In this document: one piece after another, positions 28,450 to 28,831 of the stretch
Layout of the letters: each line of letters starts with the position of its first letter
How positions within the stretch are numbered: the stretch's first letter is position 1
Assembly: GCA_903813345.2 (NCBI GenBank)
Contig: CAIIXF020000011.1
Coordinates: 28,514,166-28,578,165, forward strand
Source: Owenia fusiformis
Lineage: Eukaryota; Annelida; Polychaeta; Sabellida; Oweniidae
Direction: 5' to 3'
Length of the DNA: 64,000 bases
Notes under the pieces: generated by a model
The model's database searches: none
Told to the model about the DNA's origin: nothing
Seen by the model: only the letters and a program-made list of their open reading frames with translations
Position numbers and translations under genes: made by a program

Positions 28450-28480
28450 TGATCACTAATGGTTATGCATCCATATTTAG
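28450..28480 (+). promoter_or_regulatory. Acceptor-like site inside RUNX exon 1 (candidate distal-isoform splice junction)
   Basis: A branch-point-like cactaat (about 28454-28460) is followed by tatttag ending at 28480. Splicing here would split the Asp codon (g|at) after MHPYL, the same phase and position as in vertebrate RUNX genes, where distal-promoter transcripts join after MRIPV at the following Asp. The pyrimidine tract is short. Confidence 0.4.
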
Positions 28481-28831
28481 ATCTTAACGGGAGTGCGCCG
28501 TTCCCGGACTCTCCAAGAGGCACGATGTCGGACATTATGACGGGGGAGCGCACATTAAGCGCAGTGCTGAGTGAACACCCAGGAGAATTAGTTCGCACAG
28601 GGAGCCCCAACTTGGTTTGCTCCGTCCTCCCATCACATTGGCGATCCAACAAAACACTTCCAGTGCCATTTAAGATCGTGGCCCTGGGTGAAGTTCCGGA
28701 TGGTACAAAGGTCACAATCAGCGCAGGGAATGATGAAAACTATTGCGCTGAACTTAGAAACTACACCGCCGTTATGAAGAATCAAGTTGCGAAGTTCAAT
28801 GATTTGAGATTTGTTGGAAGAAGTGGAAGAG
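28459..28831 (+). CDS. runx: RUNX coding exon 1: N-terminus and most of the Runt domain
   Basis: Encodes residues 1-124 plus the first base of G125, ending at a consensus donor (gtaagt at 28832). The start at 28459 ([11 protein letters not shown]) is chosen because an in-frame stop lies at 28450-28452; ATG 28465 gives MHPYLD, which lines up with the vertebrate proximal-promoter start MRIPVD and may be the true start. The exon carries [32 protein letters not shown] and FVGRSGRG. Human RUNX1 has an intron in the middle of this segment (between the FK and VVALG residues); here the coding is continuous. RUNX1 Cys72 is kept (C54), but Cys81 is serine (S63) and the Met106 equivalent is serine (S88). 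The sequence is richer in CpG than its surroundings. An acceptor-like tatttag at 28474-28480 lies inside the exon. Confidence 0.96.

Follow-up and report, generated by a model that had tools for sequence, protein, structure and literature searches.

A RUNX gene in the window

The DNA analysed here, the window, is a stretch of 64 kb, and all coordinates are positions within it. Its + strand carries a complete-looking animal RUNX gene with a Runt domain and a C-terminal VWRPY. The exon boundaries were read from frame and splice signals of the genomic DNA, without cDNA:

28481..28831, + strand: exon 1, shared coding part, 351 nt, phase 1-1, GC 0.50, followed by the donor GTAAGT
32585..32698, + strand: exon 2, 114 nt, phase 1-1, C-terminal part of the Runt domain
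36016..36231, + strand: exon 3, phase 1-1
48830..48973, + strand: possible optional exon 4 between exon 3 and the last exon, starting in phase 1, donor end uncertain
50039..51051, + strand: last coding exon, ending with VWRPY and stop

The open reading frame of exon 1, which codes for the N-terminal part of the domain, matched the Runt domain (Pfam PF00853, E 2.2e-50; the match starts at residue 35 and at profile position 3) and the RUNX1 chain 4l0y_A (E 7.7e-49). VWRPY is encoded at 51034-51048 and is followed by the stop codon. Leaving out the optional exon, for which a Pfam match was not obtained, the model predicts 571 residues from the ATG at 28459 with zero internal stops. All three introns of the model are phase 1, like the split at 28480/28481 described below. 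For exon 3 an acceptor at 35969 was dropped after frame checking and 36015 was taken instead. The second Runt-domain exon (32585-32698) has 114 nt, compared with the 105 nt given for the matching exon in Nematostella and in described deuterostome genes (PMC2527000).

SUPT3H is a neighbor of Runx in several animals, the polychaete Capitella among them (PMC2674455). It was not found in the window by tblastn with a human query (best E 1.4), which is a weak test. The exon-1 protein had no relative in collections of genome contigs, viral contigs and plasmids. Rfam and tRNA scans of the whole window and a repeat scan of 27500-29000 added nothing.

Repeats were noted elsewhere in the window. A perfect inverted repeat with arms of 544 nt and a spacer of 211 nt (871-1414 and 1626-2169) has the same peptide run in ORFs of both arms. 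A minus-strand ORF within 871-2169 contains a GIY-YIG domain (Pfam E 4.3e-06), and this region looks like a piece of a Penelope-type retroelement; possibly, the repeat is an assembly hairpin. An array of 99-bp units in 3.7 copies covers 2467-2835, a 30-bp repeat (AGGGGAATACATTTACTCACATGTTAGGAT with variants) forms long arrays over 18380-19210, and a second inverted repeat at 40527-40793 (arms of 102 nt, spacer of 63 nt) is possibly a small mobile element.

Signals at the start of exon 1

In vertebrate RUNX genes the P1/P2 junction is of phase 1 (G/AT), and the distal P1 exon encodes a MAS(N/D)S-like peptide. The original prediction held that a latent splice acceptor lies at the equivalent place in this gene. 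The DNA at 28454-28490 reads CACTAATGGTTATGCATCCATATTTAG/ATCTTAACGG. The features around it are:

28454..28460, + strand: CACTAAT, branch-site-like, fits YNCURAY; branch A at 28459, with the AG ending 21 nt downstream
28459..28461, + strand: first in-frame ATG, MVMHPYL...
28465..28467, + strand: second in-frame ATG, MHPYL..., the start given originally, with a purine at -3
28474..28480, + strand: TATTTAG, putative latent 3' splice site; the shared exon would begin at 28481 in phase 1
28525..28527, + strand: next in-frame ATG, MSDIM..., which would be the start if a non-coding leader were joined at 28481

On re-reading, CACTAAT, TATTTAG and the split Asp codon were all present as described. The Asp codon GAT occupies 28480-28482 and is divided G/AT at 28480/28481, i.e. 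in phase 1. TTTAG is the first AG downstream of the branch A, with none between. The exon start needed correction. The frame of exon 1 opens after the TGA at 28450-28452; therefore, the ATG at 28459 is the first start and MHPYL, which the ATG at 28465 indeed encodes, is the second. The N-terminus ahead of Asp would be MVMHPYL and not MHPYL unless the first ATG is skipped. The A of the ATG at 28459 doubles as the branch adenosine of CACTAAT. The MSDIM at 28525 resembles the MSD/MSE that vertebrate RUNX2/RUNX1 have internally.

The GC content rises from 0.21-0.32 over 28401-28480 to 0.60 over 28481-28530, with a maximum-likelihood change point at 28488. This fits an exon boundary and equally a boundary between 5'UTR and coding sequence.

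Chance expectation and acceptor strength

How often would such an arrangement arise by chance? A YAG with YNCTRAY 15-45 nt upstream and no AG between was encountered at 39 of 63,938 positions of the + strand, the present site included, which corresponds to 39 of 1,563 YAGs. Identical criteria gave 27 of 63,938 positions, or 27 of 1,510 YAGs, on the - strand. Next to this, ATG frames with 25 or more open codons, the ATG counted, were collected from both strands (n = 561). In 13 of them the first base of codon 6 was the G of a YAG; with a branch site in addition a single frame was left, that of RUNX. When the 16 nt at 28465-28480 were fixed and the upstream sequence was redrawn from a local Markov model, the branch motif appeared in a fraction of 0.040 of 20,000 draws. 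These rates presuppose a position fixed beforehand. As the site was singled out once the sequence had been read, it is less surprising than the nominal rates imply. The arrangement at 28454-28481 exceeds chance. The claimed positional match to the vertebrate RUNX junction in residue, phase, acceptor and branch site is real, and chance is an unlikely source of it (1 of 561 ATG frames).

Acceptors were scored with a hand-made matrix and ranked among the 3,246 AGs of the window. The acceptor at 28480 is weak (score -1.17, 73.4th percentile). The other acceptors of the gene scored 4.61, 1.27, 1.45 (optional exon) and 6.81, equivalent to percentiles 99.0, 90.5, 91.1 and 99.8. Within 28201-28560, 28480 was outscored by 6 of the 19 other AGs, with 28235 at the top (3.24, 97.2nd percentile); the AG at 28448 reached -3.07 (54.9th percentile). 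A strict branch motif was present within 60 nt before one of the four other acceptors, and there another AG intervenes. Hence, the motif helps, yet is not required of real sites in this gene. Pyrimidines make up 10 of 17 positions upstream of the AG at 28480, the same as in the mouse Runx2 exon-2 acceptor. With the base composition of the window as background the mouse acceptor scored 0.5 compared with -1.17 for 28480; with a flat background the scores were 0.29 and 0.77, respectively. Because the mouse acceptor is similarly low-scoring and has an equal pyrimidine share, the weak tract at 28480 is compatible with use.

The start codon and molluscan Runx proteins

Oyster CgRunx has lysines K65, K107, K126 and K149 in its Runt domain, as numbered in its published description (PMC11430624). 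The protein of this gene, counted from 28459, has lysines at 65, 107, 126 and 149 among others, i.e. the oyster numbers matched four of four at offset 0. At each of the 24 other offsets tested, from -12 to +12, at most one of four matched. Since the four positions match when counted from 28459, the contiguous start is probably real, and the oyster numbering suggests that the ATG at 28459 is favored over that at 28465. The match has no bearing on whether the acceptor at 28480 is used as well. The pearl oyster PmRunt, for which cDNA ends were obtained by RACE, is described with one start, an 82-bp 5'UTR and a Runt domain at 34-163 (PMC5453546). The N-termini of both oyster proteins are thus about equal in length to the one predicted here (PMC11430624, PMC5453546). 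This agreement with bivalves hints that the window comes from a mollusc. In contrast to the architecture proposed for this gene, an alternative 5' exon is not mentioned for CgRunx, PmRunt or LgRunx of the snail Lottia in the parts of the molluscan reports at hand.

Search for a distal exon and a promoter

The sequence upstream of exon 1 was searched for a vertebrate-like distal (P1) exon, and none was recognised beyond chance in 28.4 kb. ATGs without a stop in the first 8 codons were scored against vertebrate P1 peptides. A score of at least 20 was reached by 3 of 371 upstream ATGs and by 10 of 1,437 control ATGs. The best look-alikes, at 22848 (score 18) and 25030 (score 20), were inside the range of control ATGs; position 26833 falls inside an inverted repeat. 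Combinations of an ATG with a phase-1 donor numbered 7 at a donor score >5 and 16 at >3, and none stands out. The short candidate with the closest likeness is a weak lead:

22848..22887, + strand: candidate distal first exon, MRFSAEFSFIPIY before the Asp, donor GTAAGA, phase 1; likeness to vertebrate P1 peptides within chance

Far upstream, at 5357-5417, Runx-like motifs (TGYGGT/ACCRCA) are clustered, and the one at 5411 is strict. This relaxed cluster was discarded, none of the 16 candidates being located beside it. Jawed vertebrates typically have a large intron between P1 and P2 (PMC4236176), and therefore the absence of a distal exon from the window is weak evidence. Such an exon may lie outside the window or may have diverged.

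Close to the start of exon 1 two strict Runx motifs face each other:

28369..28375, - strand: AACCACA (TGTGGTT on the - strand), left member of a convergent pair
28392..28398, + strand: TGTGGTT, right member of the pair

They start 90 and 67 bp before the ATG at 28459. Among 14 strict Runx motifs in the window this is the sole pair within 60 bp, and in 3000 Markov sequences of 300 bp such a pair occurred twice. This suggests a candidate site of self-regulation in a P2-like promoter. In jawed vertebrates, tandem Runx sites are found at P1 of the RUNX genes (PMC3974841), whereas the convergent pair here precedes the P2-like start. The tandem pair is missing from lamprey promoters (PMC4236176). 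A bacterial-type promoter scan of 28000-28500 returned 2 sites vs 3.3 expected and added nothing.

Possible readings of the exon 1 start

That 28480 is a used latent acceptor of the P1 type is the single most likely reading, although we give it slightly less than an even chance. The 5' coding exon would then have a double role, like exon 2 of vertebrate RUNX genes. From a P2-like start just upstream, near the Runx pair at 28369/28392, transcripts would read through and be translated from 28459 or 28465, yielding MVMHPYL-D... or MHPYL-D..., respectively. Transcripts from a promoter farther upstream would be spliced with CACTAAT as branch site and 28480 as acceptor, and would skip both ATGs. The distal exon would be joined at 28481 in phase 1, its G restoring the Asp; in a variant with a non-coding leader, translation would begin at MSDIM (28525). 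The signals, the phase and the frame that this reading takes up are read directly in the DNA; we infer from them the use of the acceptor and a distal promoter. That a two-promoter RUNX architecture operates in this gene, as originally asserted, goes beyond what the positional match shows, and the search of 28.4 kb upstream, in which a distal exon was not recognised, and the weak acceptor speak against it.

Coincidence follows closely and has to be taken seriously. Exon 1 would then be an ordinary first coding exon served by one promoter, and the AG and the branch-like motif would have arisen by chance from an AT-rich 5'UTR and the Leu-Asp codons. A TTA codon (Leu) before GAY presumably yields TAG cheaply in AT-rich DNA. 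Coincidence would agree with the low score of 28480, with the outcome of the upstream search and with PmRunt, for which one start, a Runt domain at 34-163 and an N-terminus about as long as the one here are described (PMC5453546). Furthermore, the nominal rates overstate the surprise, since the comparison was chosen with the sequence already read. On the other hand, the full arrangement was seen in only 1 of 561 comparable ATG frames and it agrees exactly with a position which is set by the vertebrate RUNX genes. Improbable by comparison is a non-coding leader joined, by cis- or trans-splicing, to an AG that precedes the two ATGs, e.g. at 28235 or 28448, with 28480 left unused. The high rank of 28235 would suit such a leader, the middling one of 28448 hardly so, and the promoter-looking Runx pair lies between 28235 and the ATG, although such motifs also occur in UTRs. 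Least probable, with a slim chance at best, is that 28480 is a constitutive acceptor, the coding start being wholly upstream and MVMHPYL intronic and never translated. The consensus branch site and the GC change point near 28480-28490 would be expected in this case. Yet the acceptor is weak, and the oyster lysines fit four of four only when counted from the ATG at 28459, which indicates an oyster protein of this N-terminal length, barring accident.

A used P1-type acceptor remains the preferred reading. The further step, that an alternative-start RUNX gene with distal phase-1 splicing into the Asp codon predates the protostome-deuterostome split, was inherited from an ancestor in common with chordates and still works here, is a tentative proposal which we consider less likely than not. 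The word 'ancestral' in the original prediction is unproven and would rest on one gene. A pre-vertebrate origin of two Runt starts has already been published for amphioxus (PMC2265531), and only an extension to protostomes would be new. In the titles, abstract openings and passages covered by a literature search, a P1/P2 RUNX architecture was not reported for a protostome. If the acceptor is used and conserved, the P1/P2 switch, by which RUNX functions are divided in the blood and bone of vertebrates, would have arisen before the chordates. In molluscs, where Runx acts in blood-cell formation and shell (PMC11430624, PMC5453546), one could then ask what purpose the switch had before the vertebrate gene duplication.

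Comparison with vertebrate and lancelet RUNX genes

Like exon 2 of vertebrate RUNX1/2/3, exon 1 of this gene begins its coding part with a short peptide that is followed by an Asp at an acceptor within the exon, in phase 1, and it has a YNCURAY branch site. It differs in that MVMHPYL or MHPYL takes the place of MRIPV and that a distal exon was not recognised in the window. Translation from 28459 would put 7 residues of P2 peptide ahead of the Asp instead of 5. When MHPYL...MSDIM was aligned with RUNX1b and RUNX2-I, Met-1 and Asp-6 were in register (p 0.0066 and 0.0074, 5,000 shuffles each), the stretch having been cut at MSD after that motif was noticed. A longer N-terminal alignment gave p 0.149 (RUNX1b) and 0.338 (RUNX3) with 2,000 shuffles each. 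From these alignments, homology of the N-terminus with vertebrate RUNX is plausible. The P2 start peptide is MHIPV in lamprey RunxA and teleost Runx3, MRTLL in lamprey RunxB, MVFLW in teleost Runx1 and MRPIV in teleost Runx2 (PMC4236176). Because these peptides vary among vertebrates, little weight can be given to the resemblance of MH... to MHIPV.

The mouse Runx2 forms have 19 own residues (P1) or 5 (P2, MRIPV) in addition to 509 common ones (PMC13152850), and the P2 ATG is bypassed by P1 splicing (PMC3974841). For exon 2 of mouse Runx2, the branch site CGCTAAC lies 31 bp ahead of the acceptor, and Runx2-II, the P1 form, is severely reduced when this branch site is mutated (PMC13152850). Here, the branch A is 21 nt from the AG and is situated inside the first ATG. 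In mouse, removal of the first P2 ATG had little effect and a downstream ATG was used (PMC4171521, PMC13152850); the analogous ATG of this gene is at 28525.

The lancelet Branchiostoma also has a single invertebrate Runx gene, and alternative starts, exon 1/P1 and exon 2/P2, are described for it. In situ probes revealed both variants, but in adults the exon 2 variant alone (PMC2265531). The lancelet variants were detected by probes, whereas the arrangement in this gene is known from genomic signals.
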